Below are positions 39,541 to 55,149 of a stretch of 64,000 bases of DNA, one piece after another. Every line of letters begins with the position of its first letter. The stretch's first letter is position 1. The DNA lies in NCBI GenBank assembly GCA_020719045.1, contig DYQY01000008.1, forward strand, positions 1 through 64,000, written 5' to 3'. A model generated the notes under the pieces. It was not told the DNA's origin. It worked only from the letters and a program-made list of their open reading frames with translations, and did not search any database. Both the position numbers and the translations under genes were made by a program. Origin of the DNA: Candidatus Termititenax sp. GTDB taxonomy: Bacteria > Margulisbacteria > Riflemargulisbacteria > GWF2-35-9 > DYQY01.

Positions 39541-39908
39541 CAGACAACAGTTGCTATTGCCAGTCCAGCATCGTGAGTAATAGAAAGATCAAATGAAAGA
39601 TTATTCTTTTCTACAAACAACTTTGTCTTTCCACTGAAAACTAAAAAAGGTCTGCCATCCTCATCATGATTAACAGCTACTTCCTTCATAATTAAATCCT
39701 TCATGCTTGGGACTGCCTTAAAAAAAGCTTCTTTTGCTGCAAATCTTGCTGCTATTCTATCAAGTTTTACTGACTCATTGTCCGCTTTAAAGATATAAGT
39801 TAATTCTTGCTCAGAAAAAACTCTGTTCTTAAAATGTTCATCAATAAGAATATCCTTGAATCTAACAACCGAAACTACATCAATACCCGTGGTATATTTA
39901 TTTCCCAT
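39522..39908 (-). CDS. acpS: Holo-[acyl-carrier-protein] synthase
   Basis: AcpS (128 residues) transfers phosphopantetheine from CoA to ACP. It shows TGIDVVSVVRFKDIL at the N-terminus (Mg-binding Asp), RVFSEQELTYIF near residue 30 and RIAARFAAKEAFFKAV near 50 (the WAAKEA-type motif), ending LSITHDAGLAIATVV. ATG at 39908 fits the family start. It overlaps wecG by 11 bases. The 3' end overlaps the STAS gene, so there is no terminator between these converging genes. Confidence 0.92.
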   Translation of the reverse strand: MGNKYTTGIDVVSVVRFKDILIDEHFKNRVFSEQELTYIFKADNESVKLDRIAARFAAKEAFFKAVPSMKDLIMKEVAVNHDEDGRPFLVFSGKTKLFVEKNNLSFDLSITHDAGLAIATVVCYEATD

Positions 39909-40626
39909 TTCTCTTTTCACAAAAATACAGCTGTAATAATTCAAAAGGAATAAGGTACATTCTCTTTATTCTCATTGGCTCTTGAAGTAATCTAAAGAAC
40001 CATTCCATCCCAACTTTTTGCATCCATCTTGGAGCTCTTTTAAGAACACCAGCAATAACATCAAAGCTCCCACCAACAGTAACTTTAATAGGCACTTTAA
40101 TTTGTTTTTCGTATTTGCTAATAAACAATTCTTGTTTAGGAAAACCAGTTCCAACAAATAAAATATCTGCACCACTACTGTTTACTTGCTTAATAATGTC
40201 ATTCTCTTCTGACTCAGCAAAATATCCATCATGGAAACCTACTACTTCAAAAGAAGGAAATAACTTTGCTGTCTTTGAAACAGCTTTCTCCACATTTTCT
40301 TTCTTTGCACCTAAATAATAAACTTTATATTTTCTATTGGGGTTAGTACCAAGTGCATAAATGGTATCAATGCCAGTCACTCTGTTCGTCACGTTTTTCT
40401 TAAAAATCTTTGCTAATAAAACAAGAGTAATGCTGTCAGGTAACAGAATATTTGCAGACTTAAGAATGCCTGATAAATCTGGGTCTTTATAAGATGCATA
40501 AAGAATTTCTGTAGTTGGTGTAACAATAAAACAACTCTTCTTTTTAGCTATGTAAGAATTAATCTCTTTAATGAGAATGTCGTAACTTCCTGAAAAAAAA
40601 GTAAATCCTAATAAGTTATTATCCAT
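39898..40626 (-). CDS. WecG/TagA/CpsF family glycosyltransferase
   Basis: A 242-residue GT26 enzyme, usual length. It has SCFIVTPTTEILYAS near residue 31, ILLPDSITLVLL near 60 with the DG-like catalytic Asp, RVTGID near 82, LFVGTGFPKQELFI near 155 and GGSFDVIAGVLKRAPRWM near 185. Such enzymes add ManNAc or ManNAcA to a lipid-linked GlcNAc in wall teichoic acid or enterobacterial common antigen synthesis. Next to csaB it suggests a polymer linked to the cell wall. AAGGA precedes the start. Confidence 0.9.
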   Translation of the reverse strand: MDNNLLGFTFFSGSYDILIKEINSYIAKKKSCFIVTPTTEILYASYKDPDLSGILKSANILLPDSITLVLLAKIFKKNVTNRVTGIDTIYALGTNPNRKYKVYYLGAKKENVEKAVSKTAKLFPSFEVVGFHDGYFAESEENDIIKQVNSSGADILFVGTGFPKQELFISKYEKQIKVPIKVTVGGSFDVIAGVLKRAPRWMQKVGMEWFFRLLQEPMRIKRMYLIPFELLQLYFCEKRNGK

Positions 40627-40696
40627 AGGTCCTTCGCCAACAAAGTATTGATATAATTTACTAGAAATAGCTTGTTTTGTCTAATGAAATATAAGT

Positions 40697-41713
40697 CTAA
40701 AAAAACTTTACCAACACGTTTCCTATGAGTTCTGGAACTGATTCCTTCTCCATGTCTTCCATTGTGCAACTTAGCACATTTTTATGCACCACTTTTTCTT
40801 TATATGCATTTATAAGAATATTCTTGTTTACATTCTCATTACCAATACATATTTGCTTAACCATCTTTGAAAAACCAGTCCCTTTGTCTCCTTTTCCCAA
40901 ATATACAAATGGGGTACGAGCTGAAGCACTAAAAACCAAACTATGATATCTTTGACCAATGAAAAAATCCATCTGCTTTATATTTCCCATAAGGACTGAA
41001 GGGTTCTCTTCTTCTAAAATGTCTATATTTAGCTTTTTCTTAAGAATATAATAGGATGCCATGTCTGCTGGATTAAAAGGAATAAATATTAAATCTACAT
41101 TGGTGGCTTTCTGGAAATCTACTAAAAGTTTGAGATAACTATTCGTCAACTGTCCAGCCATTATATTTATACCTACATAACCTTTATACTGATTATCTTT
41201 TTGGTATGGCTGAAGAAAAAAAGCAGAATCCATTACAAATCTAATATTCTTTTTTACCTTTAGCTCATTCACTAAATATTCCCTACTTTGATAATCTCTA
41301 ACACTTACCCTATTTGCTAAGAGTATTGCTCTTTTCAAAAGCCTACGACTAATAAAATGTTTTAAACGATCAAAACCTTGAGCATAAAAAATTACTTTCT
41401 TTCTGTAAATTCTACAAAGCTGTGCAACCCCTGTATAATAAAACATATTCAAAATGCTTGTTTGATCCTGAAAAAGGCTTCCACCAGCAAAGACAATAAT
41501 ATCGCAATAATTAACACCAGCAACTAAATGCGTAAGTTTCTTCCTTGAAAAGACTATGACATCATATTTCTCTTTTGTAATCTCTGGAGCATCAGTAAAA
41601 ACCGCAATTGAAATTGGCTCATGATACTTTTTGCACTGGCTAATCATTGCCTGCAAGATAGCTTCATCGCCAACATTTTGATTACCAAAATAACCAACAA
41701 GTCCAATTTTCAT
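40697..41713 (-). CDS. csaB: Polysaccharide pyruvyl transferase (CsaB-like)
   Basis: A 338-residue enzyme of the PS_pyruv_trans family. It shows the N-terminal GYFGNQNVGDEAILQAMI near residue 6, VFAGGSLFQDQTSILN near 74, VGINIMAG near 180 and the C-terminal GQRYHSLVFSASARTPFVYLG near 253. It transfers pyruvate from PEP to a sugar of a cell-surface polymer; in bacteria with SLH-domain surface proteins this ketal is the docking site. It is coupled to the flavoprotein gene upstream by a one-base overlap. Confidence 0.9.
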   Translation of the reverse strand: MKIGLVGYFGNQNVGDEAILQAMISQCKKYHEPISIAVFTDAPEITKEKYDVIVFSRKKLTHLVAGVNYCDIIVFAGGSLFQDQTSILNMFYYTGVAQLCRIYRKKVIFYAQGFDRLKHFISRRLLKRAILLANRVSVRDYQSREYLVNELKVKKNIRFVMDSAFFLQPYQKDNQYKGYVGINIMAGQLTNSYLKLLVDFQKATNVDLIFIPFNPADMASYYILKKKLNIDILEEENPSVLMGNIKQMDFFIGQRYHSLVFSASARTPFVYLGKGDKGTGFSKMVKQICIGNENVNKNILINAYKEKVVHKNVLSCTMEDMEKESVPELIGNVLVKFF

Positions 41714-43153: not shown

Positions 43154-43565
43154 TCAAAGTTAACTCTCCTCCGCGAAATGTTTTTAACAAGTATCTTTTC
43201 ATATCATATTCTAATTCATTACCCCTGTAAACGTGACGACCATGTTTAAAATATACGTTGGAGCTAGCATATACAACATCGTTGTCAGGATAAAAATTAA
43301 TTACATTAGCAGAAATAGTAAACCCCTTTTCGGAATCAATGGTAGACTCGTACATAACAAATAATTTGTCATACATTTCAATCTTCTTTGCCTTTACCTT
43401 AAAGCCTAACTCGCCCTGCAAAAAGTGCTCGATATCAGCATCAAGCAAAACTAAATTTGGCTCTAGCTTCTTATTTTCAGGAGATTTGTAGGTAAAGTCG
43501 ACACTCGTAAAAACTAAATATAATAATAAAATAATCAGAAAAGGAACAATGTATTTACTTATCAT
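43146..43565 (-). CDS. lptC: LPS export protein LptC-like
   Basis: A 139-residue bitopic protein: one N-terminal transmembrane segment (residues 5-22), then a periplasmic LptC fold (about 45-139). It includes FLQGELGFKVKAKKIEMYDKL and VVYASSNVYFKHGRHVYRGNELEYD, the alternating strand pattern of OstA-type domains. It receives LPS from the ABC transporter and passes it to LptA. The overlaps on both sides (TPR gene upstream by 11, lptA downstream by 8) indicate one operon. Confidence 0.8.
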   Translation of the reverse strand: MISKYIVPFLIILLLYLVFTSVDFTYKSPENKKLEPNLVLLDADIEHFLQGELGFKVKAKKIEMYDKLFVMYESTIDSEKGFTISANVINFYPDNDVVYASSNVYFKHGRHVYRGNELEYDMKRYLLKTFRGGELTLND

Positions 43566-44190
43566 TCTTTAGGTTATCTATACTATACTTATTGAAAACA
43601 CTGGATGCCTGCATTGATCCTACCTTAACTAAAGTTCCAGTTAATCCAAAGTAATCTCCCACTTGCTGCTGTCCATAACCTTTGGCAAGAAACAAAGCAA
43701 CACCATCAGGCTCATACCTAATAGCTTCTTCAATTATTTGAAGACCCTTTTTCCAGTCCTTCTTTTCTCCATGTATATAGGCAACATATCCTAGTGCCCA
43801 CCCCTTTGCAGAGCTCTCAGGACTTAAACTAACTACCTTATAAAAATATTCCTTAGACTCTTCCTTTTTGTCATTAAAATAAAGAGCAAAAGCATGATTG
43901 AAGTTTGCCTTCCAATCACCTGAAGCTACTTCCAGCTCCTCAGTTGTTTGACCTAGAATCTTCTTAGCAAAGCTTGGATCTATTTTATTTATACTTGCAA
44001 GTTCATTAAAGCCCTCTTGTAAAAAACCTGTTGACGCATAAGCCATAGCTAAATTAAATTTGACTCTTAAGTCGGAAGTTGTCTGTGCTGTTTTATATGC
44101 AACCTTAAGATCTTTCCACTGAGCTTCCGAAATCATAGAAAAACTCAAACTAAAAGTTACAAGAACAAAAAAAAGTAACTTACTGCTCAT
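43555..44190 (-). CDS. Periplasmic TPR-repeat protein
   Basis: A 211-residue protein with signal peptide (1-22, ending around SEAQ) and several TPR-like helical pairs (NLAMAYASTGFLQEGFNELA near 45, HAFALYFNDKKEESKEYFYKV near 90, ALGYVAYIHGEKKDWKKGLQI near 125). It is a scaffold for protein contacts in the periplasm; its partner is unknown. The ATG at 44190 follows within the end of ugd; the open frame extends ten residues upstream. It is coupled to lptC. Confidence 0.7.
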   Translation of the reverse strand: MSSKLLFFVLVTFSLSFSMISEAQWKDLKVAYKTAQTTSDLRVKFNLAMAYASTGFLQEGFNELASINKIDPSFAKKILGQTTEELEVASGDWKANFNHAFALYFNDKKEESKEYFYKVVSLSPESSAKGWALGYVAYIHGEKKDWKKGLQIIEEAIRYEPDGVALFLAKGYGQQQVGDYFGLTGTLVKVGSMQASSVFNKYSIDNLKNDK

Positions 44191-45517
44191 CACTTGGCCT
44201 CCCAATAGAAAAATATACAAAACCTTTTTCCTTCATTTTATTTGATTCATATAAATTTCTTCCATCGAAAATTACTTTACGCTTCATTAAAGAAGCCACT
44301 CTATCAAAGTCAGGTGTTCTAAACTCATTCCACTCAGTGTGAATAATAAGAGCTTCTGCATTCTTTAAAACATCATAAGCGTTATCATGATAACCTATTC
44401 TGTTCCCTAAAATTCTTTTTGCATTATCCATAGCAACAGGGTCAAAAGCATCTATAATGCAACCCTTACTTAGTAATACCTCGATAACATCTAGTGATGG
44501 AGCTGCTCTCATATCATCTGTCTTTGGCTTAAAAGAAAGACCCCAAACTGCAATCCTTGCTCCTTTTAATGGTATTCCTTTCAAAGCAAAATAATTAATA
44601 ACTTTTTGAGCTAATATTTTCTTTTGTTTTTTATTTACTTCCTCAACAGCGTTTAACAAATCCATACTAAGTCCATTATCTTTGCCTGTCTTAACAATAG
44701 CTTTAACGTCCTTTGGAAAACATGACCCGCCATAACCAACTCCAGGGAATAGAAATTTATTTCCTATTCTTGAATCAGCGCCTATAGCTGTTCTAACAAA
44801 ATCTATATCTGCGCCAACTTTTTCACATAACCCAGACATCTCATTCATAAAAGAAATCTTTGTAGCCAAGATAGCATTAGCTGCATACTTAGTAACCTCA
44901 GCACTTCTATTATCCATTAAATGTATACGATTATTTGTTCTAATATACGGAGCATATAATTCTGACATAATTGACAAAGCTTTTTCCGAACTTCCGCCCA
45001 AAACAACTCTATCTGGCTTTGAAAAATCATCTAATGCAGAGCCTTCTTTTAAAAACTCGGGATTACTAATCACGTCAAATTCAAACGAAACATTCCTTAG
45101 CTGTATCTCTCTACTAATAGTCTCTCTAACTAAATCAGCAGTCCCAACAGGAACTGTTGATTTATTAACAACTACTTTGTATCCATTAATATTGTTTCCA
45201 ATATCTTTAGCTACTTGAATAACATAACTAAGGTCTGCAGAACCATCTTCCTCAGGTGGAGTTCCAACCGCAATAAATAATACCTCGTTGTCTTTTACAG
45301 CGCTCTTAATATCTGTTGTAAACATTAATCTTTTTTCTCGAATATTCCTGGTCATCAAAGAGTCTAATCCTGGTTCATATATAATCGGATCGCCTTTCTT
45401 TAATCTAGCAACCTTCTTCTCATCTATATCTACACAAGTTACTTGATTGCCAGTATCAGAAAAACAAGCCCCAGCGACTAATCCAACATATCCAGTGCCA
45501 ATAACTGCAATTCTCAT
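44180..45517 (-). CDS. ugd: UDP-glucose 6-dehydrogenase
   Basis: A 445-residue dehydrogenase making UDP-glucuronate from UDP-glucose with two NAD+. The NAD motif IAVIGTGYVGLVAGACFSD starts at residue 3, NKSTVPVGTADLVR near 118, the catalytic Lys-containing YAANAILATKISFMNE near 212 and the catalytic Cys in GVGYGGSCFPKDVKAI near 260. It ends in the UDP-binding domain (VWGLSFKPKTDDMRAAPS near 325). UDP-GlcA is a building block for surface polysaccharide and fits the glycosyltransferases downstream. GGGGGG precedes the ATG. Confidence 0.95.
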   Translation of the reverse strand: MRIAVIGTGYVGLVAGACFSDTGNQVTCVDIDEKKVARLKKGDPIIYEPGLDSLMTRNIREKRLMFTTDIKSAVKDNEVLFIAVGTPPEEDGSADLSYVIQVAKDIGNNINGYKVVVNKSTVPVGTADLVRETISREIQLRNVSFEFDVISNPEFLKEGSALDDFSKPDRVVLGGSSEKALSIMSELYAPYIRTNNRIHLMDNRSAEVTKYAANAILATKISFMNEMSGLCEKVGADIDFVRTAIGADSRIGNKFLFPGVGYGGSCFPKDVKAIVKTGKDNGLSMDLLNAVEEVNKKQKKILAQKVINYFALKGIPLKGARIAVWGLSFKPKTDDMRAAPSLDVIEVLLSKGCIIDAFDPVAMDNAKRILGNRIGYHDNAYDVLKNAEALIIHTEWNEFRTPDFDRVASLMKRKVIFDGRNLYESNKMKEKGFVYFSIGRPSDEQ

Positions 45518-45532: not shown

Positions 45533-48070
45533 CTATTGATATTCTATTCTTTGTATATATGACCTATTATCTCTAGTTAATACTTTTAATTTTATAGTAT
45601 CTGCTATTTTCCTTACTGTTATATTAAACATCCCATTCGTTACAGGGACAACTTCATCATTTATATATAAAGCAACTACTTGATTATCAATCTTTCCCTT
45701 TACATTGACGTTGCTTCCTAAGTCGCTAATATCACTTATTGATACTTGATTATCCAGTGCCTTAATGTCTGTTCTTGCTTTAAACACATAATCTACAGCG
45801 CCTTTTCCCTCTAAAATAACAGTTCTCGGTGAATCTAAATTAAAAGAAAAAGGTGCGCTAGAAATATCAACCTTAACAGTATACTTTGAGAAATCATCAG
45901 CAGGTATAGAATAAAGACCATTTGCATCAGTCTTCATTACTTCTTGATTTACAAAAACTCTTACACCAGGCAAAACCTTGTCTTCATTATCATAAGCGCC
46001 ATTACTATTTACATCCACATACACTCTTCCATGAACTTTACCTGAAATTAATACACCAAAGTTTGCTAGAACCCTTGATGAATTATCAATTAATATCATT
46101 CTTGGATGGTCATAAGTGTGGATAATATCAGAATGCTCTTTATGTATAGCAATATCATAATCTCCAACTGGCACATCTCTTAAAGTATAAATCCCTTGTT
46201 TATTTGTTGTAACAACTGATCCATTTGAAAGTTTTACACTAACACCTGGAACACCAACTTCACCTTCATCATAGTTAGCATTCATGTTCTCGTCTTTAAA
46301 AACAATCCCTGTAATAACTGAATTACCTCCACCTAAACGCAGATTGTAATCAAAATTCTGTGAATACTCTACTCTCAGCTCATCTAATAAAGAATCTGCT
46401 CTCAAGTATGGATCTTCATTATTAATCCTTCTGTATCCTCGAATTACAAACTTCCCATCATTATTAGGATACCAAGTATACTGAAGCATATAATAATGCA
46501 GATACTTCCATCCTGATCTCCACTGATTATACATATCATTCTCAACATATCTTGTCTGGAACTGATAAAAACCATCAAGGCTCATATTCCCGTTGTTAAA
46601 AAATATTGGATTCATAATTATAAAATTATCATACTCTTGCTCATTACGATTTTCTGAGGCTGTATAATACCTATACTGCTTTCCAGTTGCTTCAAATTGA
46701 TAAGTAAATGGACTTACAATTGGAACTTTAAACCCAACTGAATGTTGAGTTCTATCATAGTCTCTAGTTGGAGAACGCAAATCATCATAGTCTAAAGGTT
46801 TATATCTGTACCACACTGATACAGGACCGATATCATTATAAAGCTTTAACTGATACGACCTATTCTGATAAAAATAATTATCAACTGTCGTTCTATCTGC
46901 TTCTGCCTTACTGTTTGAATAATCTGCTTGAATATTAGGCAGTAAACCATTAATTTTTGAAGCCCTATAATTTGCAAACAAATAATCTGTTTGATTGACT
47001 AATGGTTCGTTATTAACATGTTTCTGATAATTCTCACCATTGTATCCGACATCCCAAACAGCATCAGGTCTATAAAATAGACTATATTTAAAGCCTGTAT
47101 AACCAGCATAATTTTCGATGCCAACTGGCATCAAGAAACCTTCATCTATTGCTAGATATCTGAGTGAAGCATTAATCCCTGAAAGTGAATCATAGCTCAG
47201 TTTTAAGTCTCTACCTATCTTACTATTACTATCTCTACCTATTTCACCATATACTTTATATCCACGTACTGCCCAATCATACAATAAACTTAAAGATTGG
47301 TTACTTAAGTTAATGCCAACCTGATTACTTCTATCGATATTATATAGCAACTTTGCATAGGCAATGTTCTGATAACTACGCATATTTTCTCGCTCTAAAA
47401 CACTCCCCCAGTAACCAAAATTATTTCTTCCATAAAACAAAAATGCCTCAATGTCGTTATATTTATTCATCCAGCTTAAACCTTGAAGTGGCTGTGAAGG
47501 CATTACAATAGTTGATTTGCCTTGTATATACTGGTCTCCAGCCTCAAACACACCTATCTCGCTATCTAATCTAGCATTAAACTCGTATACTCCCCTAAAC
47601 TCTGGCTTATCCTTAATGCCGACTCTTCCATAAAACCCACCCAAAGGAGTAGGTCCCTTGGTGTCTAGCTTGTAATACATATAATGATAAAACCAATTAT
47701 TCTCAGAAAATGCAGAGGTGGAATCTCCTCTTCCATATCCAGCAGTAAAGTTTGAAACAAACTTCTTACCACTATAATCAACATTAGACATTTTCTTCTC
47801 GCCAAATAAAGGCTTAGTATTAATATTTACAACGTAAATATCCTTTTTAGAGCCTTTCTTAATTACTATAAATTTTGACTTACCTGGTTTTAACCCTTCT
47901 ATAAGTAAATTTTCTTCACTTATAGAAATAGCAATATTATCAGGATTATCAATAATCAAAACCTTTTCAACATCAACTACTCTTACTGCCTTGGATTCTT
48001 TATAATCAATATCAATTACTGCTGAAAATAATAAAGATGAAAGCAAAAAGAAAGCTAAAAGTCTTCTCAT
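45533..48070 (-). CDS. Usher-like outer-membrane protein with two SdrD-B-type domains
   Basis: An 845-residue exported protein (signal peptide 1-17). Residues about 25-85 resemble the N-terminal domain of pilus secretins (VRVVDVEKVLIIDNP, then ISISEENLLIEGLKPGKSKFIVI). Residues about 105-575 show dense alternating aromatic strands typical of a large outer-membrane beta-barrel. Near 590 and 690 come two SdrD-B/CNA-B-like domains with calcium-loop patterns DENMNANYDEGE and DVNSNGAYDNED. The whole length suits a fimbrial usher, but I see no classical PapC-type N-terminal domain. It overlaps a PapD-like chaperone gene by four bases. A divergent chaperone-usher system is inferred. Confidence 0.6.
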   Translation of the reverse strand: MRRLLAFFLLSSLLFSAVIDIDYKESKAVRVVDVEKVLIIDNPDNIAISISEENLLIEGLKPGKSKFIVIKKGSKKDIYVVNINTKPLFGEKKMSNVDYSGKKFVSNFTAGYGRGDSTSAFSENNWFYHYMYYKLDTKGPTPLGGFYGRVGIKDKPEFRGVYEFNARLDSEIGVFEAGDQYIQGKSTIVMPSQPLQGLSWMNKYNDIEAFLFYGRNNFGYWGSVLERENMRSYQNIAYAKLLYNIDRSNQVGINLSNQSLSLLYDWAVRGYKVYGEIGRDSNSKIGRDLKLSYDSLSGINASLRYLAIDEGFLMPVGIENYAGYTGFKYSLFYRPDAVWDVGYNGENYQKHVNNEPLVNQTDYLFANYRASKINGLLPNIQADYSNSKAEADRTTVDNYFYQNRSYQLKLYNDIGPVSVWYRYKPLDYDDLRSPTRDYDRTQHSVGFKVPIVSPFTYQFEATGKQYRYYTASENRNEQEYDNFIIMNPIFFNNGNMSLDGFYQFQTRYVENDMYNQWRSGWKYLHYYMLQYTWYPNNDGKFVIRGYRRINNEDPYLRADSLLDELRVEYSQNFDYNLRLGGGNSVITGIVFKDENMNANYDEGEVGVPGVSVKLSNGSVVTTNKQGIYTLRDVPVGDYDIAIHKEHSDIIHTYDHPRMILIDNSSRVLANFGVLISGKVHGRVYVDVNSNGAYDNEDKVLPGVRVFVNQEVMKTDANGLYSIPADDFSKYTVKVDISSAPFSFNLDSPRTVILEGKGAVDYVFKARTDIKALDNQVSISDISDLGSNVNVKGKIDNQVVALYINDEVVPVTNGMFNITVRKIADTIKLKVLTRDNRSYIQRIEYQ

Positions 48071-48822
48071 TTAACCTTAATCTCTTCCATAAATATCTTA
48101 TCATTACCAAAATCTAAACTAAGAATTAAAGTGAGCCCCTTCGCATTTAAGGCATAACTAGAAAGAAGCAAAGAATCACTTTCACTTCTTGTTTTGTCTG
48201 GCAAGGTTGAAAGACTGGAAATCTCTTTCTTAATTACAACTGTATTTTTGTCATCTAGTAATAAAAGCGTTAAATTTGGTCTTAACAAAACATTCCCATT
48301 ATTACGAATATTAAATCTATAATACAACTTATTACCGATTAAACTAGCAGACACAGTATCAACTTTATAATTAACTAAAGACCTCTCTGTAATCTCCTTA
48401 TAAATAATACTGCCTATTCTTCCTCCAAAGCTAACCCCACTTCCTTTTGGCTCAGCAACTGGTCTTGCCTCAAAAAATAACACCCCATATTCGCCAGCAG
48501 TATCTGTCTTTGACGCTTTAACATTCATCATTACCTGTTTAGACTCTCCAGCTTTTAGCTTTAGCAAAGTTGGATAATACACTACATCATCAAGCAATGA
48601 ATACTCTGTTGTTCCTGCTGGAACAAATATCTTCTCCGAACCCTTAAGTTGCCAATCGTTTAAATATACTCTTACTGATATTTCTTCCGAACCTTTATTC
48701 GTTACAGTAAATGTTCTTCTAATATTTGAATCAGGATCCATCTGCAAAGTATAATTAGATGGAGCTACAGAAAGATTTACTGCAAAAGCTACACTTAATA
48801 AACATATAAATATTTTTTTCAT
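48067..48822 (-). CDS. PapD-like periplasmic chaperone
   Basis: A 251-residue protein with signal peptide (1-18). Residues about 20-115 form an Ig-like domain of the pilus-chaperone type (TFTVTNKGSEEISVRVYLND, then LKLKAGESKQVMMNVKASKTDTAGEYGVLFFEA). A second beta domain follows (about 145-250). Chaperones of this kind hold pilin subunits by donor-strand complementation. It lies immediately before the usher-like gene and after two small secreted proteins, the usual content of a chaperone-usher locus. Family assignment is by pattern, not by a strong motif. Confidence 0.62.
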   Translation of the reverse strand: MKKIFICLLSVAFAVNLSVAPSNYTLQMDPDSNIRRTFTVTNKGSEEISVRVYLNDWQLKGSEKIFVPAGTTEYSLLDDVVYYPTLLKLKAGESKQVMMNVKASKTDTAGEYGVLFFEARPVAEPKGSGVSFGGRIGSIIYKEITERSLVNYKVDTVSASLIGNKLYYRFNIRNNGNVLLRPNLTLLLLDDKNTVVIKKEISSLSTLPDKTRSESDSLLLSSYALNAKGLTLILSLDFGNDKIFMEEIKVK

Positions 48823-48834
48823 TTTACTCTCCTA

Positions 48835-49392
48835 TTACTCTACAGTAACATTAATCCTAACATTCTTATTTAAAGCTGCCTTTGCATTATTTGGAATATT
48901 CATTATCCAATTAAAGGACAGCCACATCCAACTATTATCACCACTTGAATTAACTACATTTAAAATAGTTGTTTCTGCGTTTTTCAACTGAACAGAAGAA
49001 TTGGATCTGTACTTCTGGGTCCCAACTGGGTCTCCTGCATCTAAATATGCAGTATAACTTGCAGCATCTGCTGGAGAAACAGTTAAAACATTTTGCGTTG
49101 AATAACCATAATATAAATCATAATACAAATATGGTTGATTACTGCTATCTAACGGGAATCCATCATCAATAACTTCTGCATAAACCTTAACAACAAAAGA
49201 ATCTCCAGCAGGAACATCCATCGTAACAGAGGTTGCTGAATATGGTGATGTTAACCCATTAATATACACTAACGGCTTCCTTAATGGATGCACTGTCTCA
49301 GCATACATAGTTGACCAACCAGTTGTATAAGTAACGCTCGGTACTGCAAAAGAAAAACTTAACAATAGCAATAAAATAAACAGCTTTTTCAT
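48835..49392 (-). CDS. Secreted protein, candidate pilin or fibre subunit
   Basis: A 185-residue protein with signal peptide (1-16, SFA/VPS). The mature part is beta-rich (SATSVTMDVPAGDSFVVKVYAEV, then QPYLYYDLYYGY and LNKNVRINVTVE), with no cysteines and many Ser, Thr and Tyr. The last strand alternates hydrophobic residues, as expected of a donor-strand partner. No family recognised. It lies 12 bases before the chaperone gene and 24 after another secreted protein, which supports co-function as a surface subunit. Confidence 0.6.
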   Translation of the reverse strand: MKKLFILLLLLSFSFAVPSVTYTTGWSTMYAETVHPLRKPLVYINGLTSPYSATSVTMDVPAGDSFVVKVYAEVIDDGFPLDSSNQPYLYYDLYYGYSTQNVLTVSPADAASYTAYLDAGDPVGTQKYRSNSSVQLKNAETTILNVVNSSGDNSWMWLSFNWIMNIPNNAKAALNKNVRINVTVE

Positions 49393-49416
49393 ATCAACAG
49401 CCTTTCAAATAATCGG

Positions 49417-49923
49417 CTACTCTGTAAGAGTAAATGCAACTATAGATCTGTACTTGCCACTGTTTTGTGTTTTAGGAACATTTAACCTAAACTTAAAAAA
49501 CAAATCAGTGCCATCTGGAAAATTATTATATTCAGAAACTGCAGACGAATATGTTAACACTGGGTCTAGTGTAAATGCCTGCGCATCTTTACCGTACCAA
49601 ACACCTCTCGCATTTGCGCCTAAATGACCATACCAATAGAAATTAGAGTTAGGGATAACATTGTTTCCATCAGTTAGCTCCATTGTGTCATGTATCTTTA
49701 GTTGCCATGGTTCGCCGTTATTTGTCTTTACATTAACCTTTATTCCTTCGTTATCAGGAATATCCGACAAAAACTGCCCAGGTCTTACGCTTGGCACTTC
49801 CAATGTGTACCTATCAACATCTATTTCATACACACTTTGAACATTAACTACAACATTAAGTCTTGCTGTAGCTGAGAAACCCATAGCTCCCAACAATACA
49901 ATAACTAATAATAATCTATTCAT
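49417..49923 (-). CDS. Secreted protein, second candidate fibre subunit
   Basis: A 168-residue protein with signal peptide (to about residue 20). The mature part is beta-rich and ends NSGKYRSIVAFTLTE, a pattern like the last strand of spore-coat-U or WxL-type surface domains. It lacks cysteines. ATG at 49923 is chosen because AGGAG lies six bases before it; a TTG two codons upstream is in frame. It resembles its downstream neighbour in size and export but not obviously in sequence. Confidence 0.6.
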   Translation of the reverse strand: MNRLLLVIVLLGAMGFSATARLNVVVNVQSVYEIDVDRYTLEVPSVRPGQFLSDIPDNEGIKVNVKTNNGEPWQLKIHDTMELTDGNNVIPNSNFYWYGHLGANARGVWYGKDAQAFTLDPVLTYSSAVSEYNNFPDGTDLFFKFRLNVPKTQNSGKYRSIVAFTLTE

Positions 49924-49932
49924 AGACAACTC

Positions 49933-50592
49933 CTAGTTACCAACCATGTCGATAAGCTTAATGTCATCGATTGCCATGTCCACACTTCCTTCTTTTTCGT
50001 CAGCAAGAACGATAATTTGAAAATGAATTAATCCTCCAGAACCATCTTTTGAATCAAAGTTTCTTTTATTATCGCCAACAGTTGGATTAACGTCTTTAAA
50101 ATTAACTAATGGAATTAGAATAGCCTTCCAGCCTTTCCAATTAACTGGTTGAGTAAACTCAAACTTGTCATCAAAAATTGGCGAATAGTTGTCCTCAACA
50201 TCCTGTTCAAGAACCATATTCTTATTATCGTCATCATACACCTGTAAACTTAACTTACCGCTTTTTGGTCCATTACCATAAACCATAAGCTTAAGATGAG
50301 TATATCTGCTAGCGTCTTTACCAACGTATGTTCCTAGTCCTCCAACATACCAACCCTTAGTTTTTCCTTTAAGAGCAAGCACTTGTGTGCCTAAATAACT
50401 TACCATAGGATCACCTTTATATATCATTGCATTAACAGGAATTGCATTAATATCCCCAAACGTCCACCAAGCCGGAGCCTCCATTATTGTCCCATCGTCA
50501 AAATTATCCAAATCAAATACTTTTGGCATCTTTCCCTCTTCGGCATATGCAAAAGCTACTAACATTAATAACACTAATACTATTTTCTTCAT
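49933..50592 (-). CDS. Exported beta-sandwich protein (CIA30/carbohydrate-binding-like)
   Basis: A 219-residue protein with signal peptide MKKIVLVLLMLVAFAYAEE. The mature domain opens VFDLDNFDDGT, continues with LKLMVYGNGPKSGKLSLQVYDDDNK and ends VDMAIDDIKLIDM. This galactose-binding-like jelly roll pattern is typical of carbohydrate-binding or CIA30 modules, so it may bind a surface glycan. The start at 50592 is fixed by the signal peptide. It is first in the five-gene set that leads into the usher-like gene, and could be a tip adhesin. Confidence 0.62.
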   Translation of the reverse strand: MKKIVLVLLMLVAFAYAEEGKMPKVFDLDNFDDGTIMEAPAWWTFGDINAIPVNAMIYKGDPMVSYLGTQVLALKGKTKGWYVGGLGTYVGKDASRYTHLKLMVYGNGPKSGKLSLQVYDDDNKNMVLEQDVEDNYSPIFDDKFEFTQPVNWKGWKAILIPLVNFKDVNPTVGDNKRNFDSKDGSGGLIHFQIIVLADEKEGSVDMAIDDIKLIDMVGN

Positions 50593-50733
50593 TTTTCTAT
50601 TTCTCCCTTCAATGTTCTTACTGCCTATTATTATACAAGACATGCTCTCGTGTTGGCAAATATTATAGCCAGTTATTTATCGAAAATATTCATCGTTATT
50701 CCCACCTATATTAATTAGGGACTATATTTTAAA

Positions 50734-53504: not shown

Positions 53505-54065
53505 CTAATCCAGAGTGATATACTTCTCCATAGCATTAAACTTGGCTTGACCAATACCTTTAACTTTCAAGAGGTCTTGCTTATCACTAAAATACCCTTT
53601 CTCTTCTCTATAAGCTATTATTCTTTCTGCATATGATTGCCCAATACCTGGTATTTGCGTTAACTCTGACACACTCGCTTTGTTAATGTTAACTAGGCCA
53701 ATTTGCTTTTCAACCTTGGCTGAGCTAGTATTCTTTGCTTCTTTCCTACTACTTGGAATACGATACAGTTTCCCGTCCTTTAACACTTCTGCTAAGTTAA
53801 ACTTCTGCAAATCCGCATCTGGCAATGGTTCAACTATTAATAAAAGCTCATATAAATGATAATTCTCAGTTACTTTATAAATCCCTGGTTTACGAACCGC
53901 ACCGTCTACCTGAATAACAACTTTATTAACTTGAGAAGTAGCTTCTGTCCGCTCAAGAATCTGTACACTTTTGCTTTTACCTTGCTCGTAAATATAAATA
54001 CCCAGTAGGGAAATAAGAACAATCAAAATAGGCCAAAATAACTTATTAAGCTTTTTCAACGTCAT
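53505..54065 (-). CDS. ComEA-like helix-hairpin-helix DNA-binding protein
   Basis: A 186-residue membrane-anchored protein. One transmembrane helix (about 10-27) is followed by an SLBB-type beta-grasp domain (VVIQVDGAVRKPGIYKV near 52) and two helix-hairpin-helix motifs at the C-terminus (LVNINKASVSELTQIPGIGQSYAERII near 125 and DLLKVKGIGQAKF near 165). In competence ComEA binds incoming DNA at the membrane. The ATG at 54065 lies inside the end of flhB; a start at 54122 is open but adds only a basic tail. A place in a flagellar operon is unusual. Confidence 0.85.
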   Translation of the reverse strand: MTLKKLNKLFWPILIVLISLLGIYIYEQGKSKSVQILERTEATSQVNKVVIQVDGAVRKPGIYKVTENYHLYELLLIVEPLPDADLQKFNLAEVLKDGKLYRIPSSRKEAKNTSSAKVEKQIGLVNINKASVSELTQIPGIGQSYAERIIAYREEKGYFSDKQDLLKVKGIGQAKFNAMEKYITLD

Positions 54066-55149
54066 TCTCTTTCTCTTCTTGTTTATAGCGATTCTTTCTC
54101 TTACGCTTGATCTCATAAACAAGCGCCAATAATTCAGCTACTTCTGTATACAAATCTGGTGGAACTTCTTGACCAACATCTGTAGTATTAAACAAATCCC
54201 ATGCCAGCACTTTATCTTCTAGAATATAGATATAATTCTCATCAGCTACTTTCTTGATTTCCTCTGCGATTAACATCTTCCCCTTGGCTACAACTTCTGG
54301 TGCTTTCATTATCTCTGCATCGTACTTAATAGCAACTGCTATGTGCGTTGGATTAGTAACAACTGCATCAGCCCCGGCAGCACCTTTGGACTGTCTACCA
54401 CCGGATAAAGATATTGCCATATCCCTCTGTCTTTGCTTAATCAAAGGGTCTCCTTCGAGCTTCTTATACTCGTCCTTTATTTCTTGTTTACTCATTCTCA
54501 TTTGCTTCATAAATTGGCTTCTTTGGTAAAAATAATCAAAAGCAGCAACAGCCAAAAAGAACATCCCTACCCTAATTGCCACGTCAAAAGCTATTTTGCC
54601 AGCCATAGCAACAGAGGCAAGAATAGGCATATTCGATGTTTCCATAAGTTCAGGCAAGATTGGAAAAATAGCTTTGTACATAATGAACACAATTATTGCC
54701 ATTTTCGCAATAGACTTAGCTAACTCAACCAACCCTTTCATAGAAAAAATTCTTTTAAACCCCTCGATAGGGTTTAATTTACTTAGTTTAGGGATAAGTG
54801 GATCAGTAGAAAAATTAAAACCAGACTGAAGAGATTCAATTACTATTGCTACAAAAAAACCAATCAAAATTATTGGCAACAAGGACAATAATAAAAGATG
54901 ATAGCCTTTTTCTAGAATCTTTGTCGCATATAAAACTGACATCTCATCACCAATGGCATTAAATGTCAGAATAAAATAATTTTTTGTATCTTCCCATATT
55001 TTAGGAAGAAAAGCTTGAAGCGAATAATATGATGTAAAAAACAAAAAAGCTGTTGTAATTTCTTTACTCTTAACAACCTGACCTTTTTTACGAGCTTCCC
55101 TTAACTTATGGGGGGTCGGTTCCTCTGTTTTGTCTCCCTGGTCACCCAT
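54046..55149 (-). CDS. flhB: Flagellar type III export protein FlhB
   Basis: FlhB (367 residues) controls the substrate switch of the flagellar export gate. Four transmembrane segments fill residues about 30-215. The cytoplasmic domain has the self-cleaving NPTH site in VVTNPTHIAVAIKYD near 268, then ADENYIYILEDKVLAWDLF. The Lys/Glu-rich tail runs into the comEA start. It follows fliR by one base. Confidence 0.95.
   Translation of the reverse strand: MGDQGDKTEEPTPHKLREARKKGQVVKSKEITTAFLFFTSYYSLQAFLPKIWEDTKNYFILTFNAIGDEMSVLYATKILEKGYHLLLLSLLPIILIGFFVAIVIESLQSGFNFSTDPLIPKLSKLNPIEGFKRIFSMKGLVELAKSIAKMAIIVFIMYKAIFPILPELMETSNMPILASVAMAGKIAFDVAIRVGMFFLAVAAFDYFYQRSQFMKQMRMSKQEIKDEYKKLEGDPLIKQRQRDMAISLSGGRQSKGAAGADAVVTNPTHIAVAIKYDAEIMKAPEVVAKGKMLIAEEIKKVADENYIYILEDKVLAWDLFNTTDVGQEVPPDLYTEVAELLALVYEIKRKRKNRYKQEEKENDVEKA

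Follow-up and report, generated by a model that had tools for sequence, protein, structure and literature searches.

A conserved five-gene locus of Margulisbacteria that may export WxL-type subunits by a chaperone-usher-like route

Two groups of bacterial surface systems, so far treated as unrelated, are the closest described counterparts of the locus analyzed in this work. In Gram-positive bacteria, the WxLIP proteins (DUF916-DUF3324) are predicted to complete the WxL beta sandwich and to be stabilizing partners of the WxL proteins (PMC10599100). In the chaperone-usher pili, the donor residues of the chaperone EcpB and its carboxylate anchor Arg89 have been described (PMC4654587). Here we analyzed a window of 64,000 nucleotides (positions 1 to 64,000 of contig DYQY01000008.1 of Candidatus Termititenax sp., phylum Margulisbacteria), in which five genes at 45533-50592 encode proteins with likenesses to both groups. 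On balance, we favor the interpretation that this operon serves chaperone-usher-like export and assembly of WxL-type subunits, which bear or accompany a carbohydrate-binding protein.

The five open reading frames are located on the minus strand in the order jelly roll, subunit 1, subunit 2, chaperone and barrel, and each of the encoded proteins starts with a signal-peptide-like stretch. The initial annotation of this DNA had described a five-gene locus with gaps of at most 24 bases that leads straight into ugd. The compact packing is borne out, with gaps of 3, 24, 12 and -4 bases (the last being an ATGA overlap), and the barrel gene is followed by ugd after 15 bases. The components are as follows:

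49933..50592, minus strand: exported jelly-roll protein with a CBM11/CIA30-like carbohydrate-binding fold, the likely ligand-binding component
49417..49929, minus strand: subunit 1, 170 amino acids, a WxL-like single beta-sandwich with an N-terminal alternating strand
48835..49392, minus strand: subunit 2, 185 amino acids, homologous to subunit 1; the N-terminal alternating strand is missing, and the protein is a candidate tip or cap subunit
48067..48822, minus strand: periplasmic chaperone with two immunoglobulin (Ig)-like domains, assigned to the PapD/CfaA/EcpB/WxLIP superfamily by its model, Foldseek and profile-profile comparison
45533..48070, minus strand: usher-like outer-membrane beta-barrel protein, 845 amino acids
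44180-45517: ugd, the next gene after the barrel

The grouping of these genes does not reflect chance, because the same gene order recurs in other genomes. The identical five-gene arrangement, including the synteny of barrel and chaperone, was found in five further genomes of the same taxonomic order, and within this order the cassette occupies a shared chromosomal place, after fliR, flhB, a comEA-like gene, ligA and a BcrAD-type ATPase gene and before a TPR gene, lptC and lptA. One genome of the same class (G007) has the same arrangement plus one extra subunit, and the gene order recurs in Marinamargulisbacteria and beyond. Within the taxonomic order, identities to the window proteins are 50-56% for the jelly roll, about 50% for subunit 1, 36-42% for the chaperone, 29-35% for the barrel and about 20% for subunit 2. 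A single-protein search of the genome contigs with the window barrel gave no match. Among 74 genomes of the phylum, profile searches detected the barrel in 20 (near-full-length in 17 of these), the chaperone in 19 and the subunits in 17, and all three kinds of protein occur together in 17-19 genomes. Chaperones or subunits without an adjoining barrel occur in G001, G032, G038 and G057, where the contig ends. For instance, the sister genome G001 seemed to have lost both chaperone and barrel, but its contig stops 540 bases after subunit 1, and the loss was rejected. G027 shows partial chaperone-like matches and an SdrD_B match only. The link to ugd is not general. This gene is not beside the cassette in G002, G005 and G007; it was rejected as a component of the system and is a frequent neighbor only.

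There is good support for placing the chaperone in the PapD/EcpB/WxLIP superfamily, in agreement with the PapD-like chaperone of the initial annotation. Its AlphaFold2 model contains two Ig-like domains and a long F1-G1 hairpin (mean pLDDT 79.8, pTM 0.53). A Foldseek search against the Protein Data Bank (PDB) returned CfaA as the best match, followed by E. faecium WxLIP, Caf1M, FimC and CsuC (E 2e-10 to 5e-9); the WxLIP structures were matched both alone and bound to WxL, with 9i1y/9i25 among the top structure matches. Against 177,635 PDB sequences, the chaperone family profile ranked EcpB first, though just at E 0.085. In hhalign comparisons the family matched E. coli EcpB, including the F1-G1 donor region, with a score of 51.9 (E 6e-7), while the controls reached at most 21-23 for shuffles and 38 for other beta-sandwich proteins. 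The match to actinobacterial DUF916 covers both domains (P 97.9%, E 6e-13, score 97.6) and reaches E 1.5e-17 when Deinococcus members are added to the family; the Pfam DUF916 profile (WxLIP_PGBD) matched below cut-off in 5 of 11 chaperones (best 2.5e-5). By sequence, the closest kin of the chaperone is thus the Gram-positive DUF916/WxLIP group. Since EcpB and DUF916 failed to find each other in the same test, the chaperone family bridges the two. A donor-strand-like G1 strand is present:

48397..48435, minus strand: chaperone G1 strand V130-S-F-G-G-R-I-G-S-I-I-Y-K142, with alternating hydrophobic residues aligned with the donor residues of EcpB

Here V130, F132, G134 and I136 align on A111, A113, A115 and I117 of EcpB, and the alternation is kept across the chaperone family. 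Unlike the Arthrobacter protein, which has a C-terminal helix, the window chaperone stops shortly after its second domain. It appears to be soluble, in contrast to WxLIP with its transmembrane anchor.

The two subunits are homologous to each other (hhalign E 7e-19) and, as a family, to the WxL proteins, whose genes also stand side by side with those of their partner. The subunit 2 family aligns with WxL proteins collinearly from end to end (P 82.9%, E 9e-6), and the pooled subunits scored 27.7 against them, compared with a maximum of 11.5 for column-shuffled WxL alignments. Of 29 subunits, 22 have a W-x-[LI] motif where it is expected, compared with 3.8 in shuffles; subunit 2 of the window is without it. 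The second WxL motif is degenerate, with F-x-L or similar residues at its position. Apart from a weak DUF4402 match in a single relative, the Pfam scan assigned the subunits to no family, and comparison with FimA and EcpA profiles gave nothing beyond a weak alignment of the C-terminal strand. In almost all subunits the chain terminates at, or a few residues from, the last, F-like strand, as in the subunits of classical and archaic pili (type 1, Csu). Subunits of the first type begin with an alternating hydrophobic strand, which those of the second type mostly do not have. By analogy with chaperone-usher subunits, this strand may be the donor strand. The corresponding features of subunit 1 are the following:

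49834..49866, minus strand: N-terminal alternating hydrophobic segment ARLNVVVNVQS, a candidate donor strand
49699..49707, minus strand: W-x-L motif, W75-Q-L77
49420..49452, minus strand: C-terminal strand YRSIVAFTLTE at the chain end, as in subunits without a G strand

The outer-membrane barrel and the carbohydrate-binding protein are additions relative to the WxL/WxLIP systems. The barrel protein combines several domains:

47816..48025, minus strand: secretin/pilus-formation-type N-domain (PF13629-like), residues 16-85
46349..47764, minus strand: predicted beta-barrel, residues 103-574, about 25-26 strands with no plug-sized insertion (low-confidence model)
47480..47539, minus strand: conserved GDQ...P.QPxQG motif, residues 178-197
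46049..46309, minus strand: first of the two SdrD_B domains (residues 588 to about 674), containing a DxNxNxxxDxxE loop
45776..46030, minus strand: second SdrD_B domain, residues about 681-765
45536..45775, minus strand: additional beta domain at the C-terminus, residues about 766-845, not present in the relatives G002 and G007

The secretin-type and SdrD-B domains, the latter with calcium-loop motifs, had been proposed from the window sequence, and both proposals hold. The PF13629 profile matches 8 of 13 barrel family members (best 1.3e-9), with the window copy alone not reaching E 1, and the solved secretin 8jvb is a weak but correctly placed match to the N-domain (E 0.13, profile positions 13-94). 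The SdrD_B profile (PF17210) matches 10 of the 13 members and the window barrel at E 4.3e-14, both domains carrying DxNxNxxxDxxE loops, and a search of the C-terminal domains against the PDB gave SdrD (10ps, E 9.5e-12). These two domains stand at the relative place of the C-terminal beta-sandwich domains of ushers; the collinear match to FimD is weak (score 35). The further proposal that the large barrel is an usher found support in the structure search, in which ranks 1-9 were all FimD/PapC (E 6e-15 to 3.5e-10), ahead of porins, and no match by sequence. The GDQ...P.QPxQG motif closes about the fifth strand and is similar to the GDxYTxxDIFDSxxFRG of classical ushers, a likeness that we regard as a lead only. 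The barrels of the G010 group have 582 amino acids and are without SdrD_B domains, while one G032 copy is without the N-domain; both parts are therefore dispensable in evolution. In the G010 group, the short barrel is followed by a cell-wall amidase that carries Cu_amine_oxidN1 and AMIN domains (L048:4788-7046 in genome G010).

Wherever the upstream DNA is available in a relative, its cassette includes the jelly-roll gene. Members of the protein family match SGBP_B_XBD (1e-5), CBM_11 (6e-5) and CIA30, so the adhesin-like jelly roll proposed earlier stands as a CBM11-like domain, and it would be an adhesin by inference. G004 (L114:5725-7309) and G003 (L115:6230-9467) hold an additional, more distantly related cluster that encodes small subunits and a DUF916-like chaperone. 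The G003 protein at L115:6743-8206 is a fusion of a subunit-like domain with a CBM11-like jelly roll, evidence in favor of a physical connection between these two kinds of protein. The gene after this fusion begins with a carboxypeptidase-regulatory-like domain, and both contigs end at these clusters. In G057 and G032, genes for GH26-CBM9 proteins and sugar ABC transporters adjoin the cassette (L111:2080-3711; L113:3733-5409), hinting at mannan or similar glycans as the target. Because of the CBM11-like matches, the fusion and these neighbors, a polysaccharide is the likely ligand of the jelly roll.

A working model can be outlined on this basis. The WxL-like subunits would be secreted into the periplasm as incomplete beta sandwiches, which the two-domain chaperone would complete by lending its G1 strand. 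The complexes would then be handed to the outer-membrane barrel, which would pass the subunits out. Subunit 1 may polymerize through strand exchange, with the N-terminal strand of the next subunit replacing that of the chaperone, and subunit 2, having no such strand, may start or cap the fiber. The CBM11-like protein would be displayed with the fiber or use the same route and bind polysaccharide, giving a glycan-binding fiber. The overall logic is that of the classical and archaic pili, and the gene order subunit-chaperone-barrel that of the alternative chaperone-usher systems (CFA/I, ECP).

Several observations weigh against this model. The incomplete Ig fold without strand G and the N-terminal donor strand are read from sequence signatures, and WxLIP may be a permanent clamp and not a chaperone, so that strand exchange and polymerization are proposals. 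The anchor residue differs from that of the alternative systems, the carboxylate-anchor Arg89 of EcpB/CsuC being aligned with glycine 113 of the window chaperone; R135 of the G1 strand, which is R or K in all chaperones aligned, is a candidate alternative anchor. The jelly roll contains no pilin domain. The barrel model has low confidence (mean pLDDT 57.8, pTM 0.42) and a TM-score to FimD of just ~0.3, so that the usher matches are support and not proof, and porins follow the ushers closely, from 1e-8, with AlgE also matched. Neither the genome (E up to 10) nor the 13 barrels (E up to 1) matched the Pfam Usher profile PF00577, which did detect E. coli proteins in a control. The barrels show no PapC_N-type usher N-domain, with PF13629 found there instead, no plug-sized insertion between strands in the low-confidence model or the alignment, and no match to FimD or EcpC. 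The latter comparison is uninformative, because EcpC scores no better against classical ushers. As tested defining features were not found, the barrel should not be placed in the usher family, which takes nothing away from the proposal that it functions as an usher does.

The main rival to an exporting fiber system is a static surface complex, a diderm counterpart of WxL/WxLIP, in which the two-Ig clamp stays bound, the barrel is an anchor or conduit and no fiber forms. Such a complex would fit the DUF916 and WxL proteins as closest sequence kin and the predicted role of WxLIP as a stabilizing partner, as well as the small number of subunits, the single carbohydrate-binding protein and the polysaccharide-use neighbors of some relatives. 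We nevertheless consider it unlikely, for the chaperone is without the C-terminal transmembrane anchor of the Arthrobacter protein, the extra alternating N-terminal strand of subunit 1 suits exchange between subunits, and ushers rank first in the structure search of the barrel.

Still less probable is a porin or polysaccharide exporter, with the other proteins accessory to glycan capture or export and ugd supplying UDP-glucuronate. Genes for a pyruvyl transferase and glycosyltransferases are located downstream along with ugd, GH26 and sugar-transport genes adjoin the cassette in the two relatives named above, and porins and AlgE are among the structure matches of the barrel. On the other hand, the three relatives without ugd beside the cassette argue against it, about 25-26 strands exceed those of the 16-18-stranded porins, and polysaccharide export has no role for a donor-strand chaperone. 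Finally, that the locus is merely a divergent plain member of the alternative (CFA/I, ECP) clade, as CfaA and EcpB being the best structural and PDB sequence matches of the chaperone might suggest, is very improbable given a chaperone nearer to DUF916 than to EcpB, an Arg89 that is not kept, no match to EcpA or EcpC, and a barrel with neither an usher N-domain nor a visible plug-sized insertion.

Export of WxL-type subunits in a chaperone-usher-like manner therefore remains our preferred interpretation, and more tentatively the locus could represent a third branch of Ig-chaperone systems, as yet undescribed. In such a branch, WxL-type subunits would be exported and polymerized through a plugless usher, with the secretin-type N-domain serving recruitment and the SdrD_B domains at the exit. 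No match was found to the Usher, PapC_N or subunit families of classical and archaic pili, which also lack the combination of a secretin-type N-domain and C-terminal SdrD_B domains seen here. The suggestion of an undescribed class in the initial annotation is reasonable, since no Pfam or NCBIfam family names it and its relatives are mostly annotated as hypothetical; what the annotation missed is the kinship of chaperone and subunits to WxL/WxLIP, and that ugd is no more than a neighbor. The literature that we searched, with incomplete coverage, contained no description of such a system.

Outside the Margulisbacteria, distribution was assessed in a plasmid collection alone. In tblastn searches, the window chaperone matched replicons of Deinococcus and Vibrio and the window barrel another Deinococcus, all in similar clusters. 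Deinococcus chaperones match the family with E values from 1e-13 to 1e-23 and the Vibrio chaperone with 5e-5; the chaperone of the class-level relative G007 matches Deinococcus at 2e-12. Like the window locus, these uncharacterized four-gene clusters of Deinococcus plasmids and Vibrio replicons encode small proteins, a homologous chaperone and a large protein with CarboxypepD/SdrD_B C-terminal domains on one strand. They differ in that no CBM11-like gene was seen and, in Deinococcus, an N-terminal Ig-like domain replaces the secretin type. Their barrels are too divergent to align, and barrel homology of the large proteins is not established, since only the C-terminal domains match. Most of the cluster genes are annotated as hypothetical. 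The D. deserti gene at L122:5965-6735 is annotated as a FimB/Mfa2 fimbrial subunit; its product belongs to the chaperone family (hhalign E 1.6e-13), which makes this annotation probably incorrect. The Vibrio parahaemolyticus replicon NZ_CP062152.1 (L117:4855-9012) encodes a DUF4402 protein, a small protein, a chaperone and a 786-amino-acid protein that combines a plug-like stretch, VDAEVDIFRNGFYLKTV, with CarboxypepD/SdrD_B domains at its C-terminus. All of these genes but the first are annotated as hypothetical, and the cluster looks like an unrecognized usher operon. In Arthrobacter, Streptomyces and Curtobacterium, no barrel-like large gene was found within 3.5-5 kb of the WxL-DUF916 pair. 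The contrast between diderms and these single-membrane actinobacteria is consistent with the barrel acting at the outer membrane. SdrD_B matches of the barrel in Staphylococcus, Pelagibacterium and Nitratireductor are domain matches without the cassette and were set aside.

If the third branch is real, WxL complexes and chaperone-usher pili would have a common origin in an ancestral subunit-chaperone pair, to which a barrel belongs only where there is an outer membrane. If our preferred interpretation is right, donor-strand surface assembly would extend to deep-branching diderm phyla (Margulisbacteria, Deinococcota), and an usher seemingly without plug and classical N-domain would make the need for those parts directly testable. 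The clusters of Deinococcus and Vibrio, now annotated as hypothetical, would gain a name and a testable function.

The surroundings of the cassette add minor observations. The best promoter-like site of the region sits just 5' of the jelly-roll start:

50630..50659, minus strand: promoter-like site TTGCCA-18-TATAAT, an 11/12 consensus match only, the overall count of such sites not being above that of shuffles

Because of this site, the Met at 50592 is favored as the jelly-roll start over an alternative ATG upstream at 50643. A sequence scan of the region found no terminator-like sites in the gaps between the five genes. The neighborhood is very compact, with the start of the TPR gene overlapping the end of ugd (window 43555-44220) and flhB overlapping the comEA-like gene (window 54046-54122). 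In G004, a tandem repeat of ~36 bases (SSHFVRLSMTKRI on one strand, FVMLSLTKCDDI on the other) stands between the comEA-like and the downstream genes (L013:2218-2641). Downstream of lptA (window 39898-41713), genes for a WecG/TagA glycosyltransferase and a CsaB-like polysaccharide pyruvyl transferase may serve a pyruvylated cell-wall polymer by which the outer membrane is tethered.

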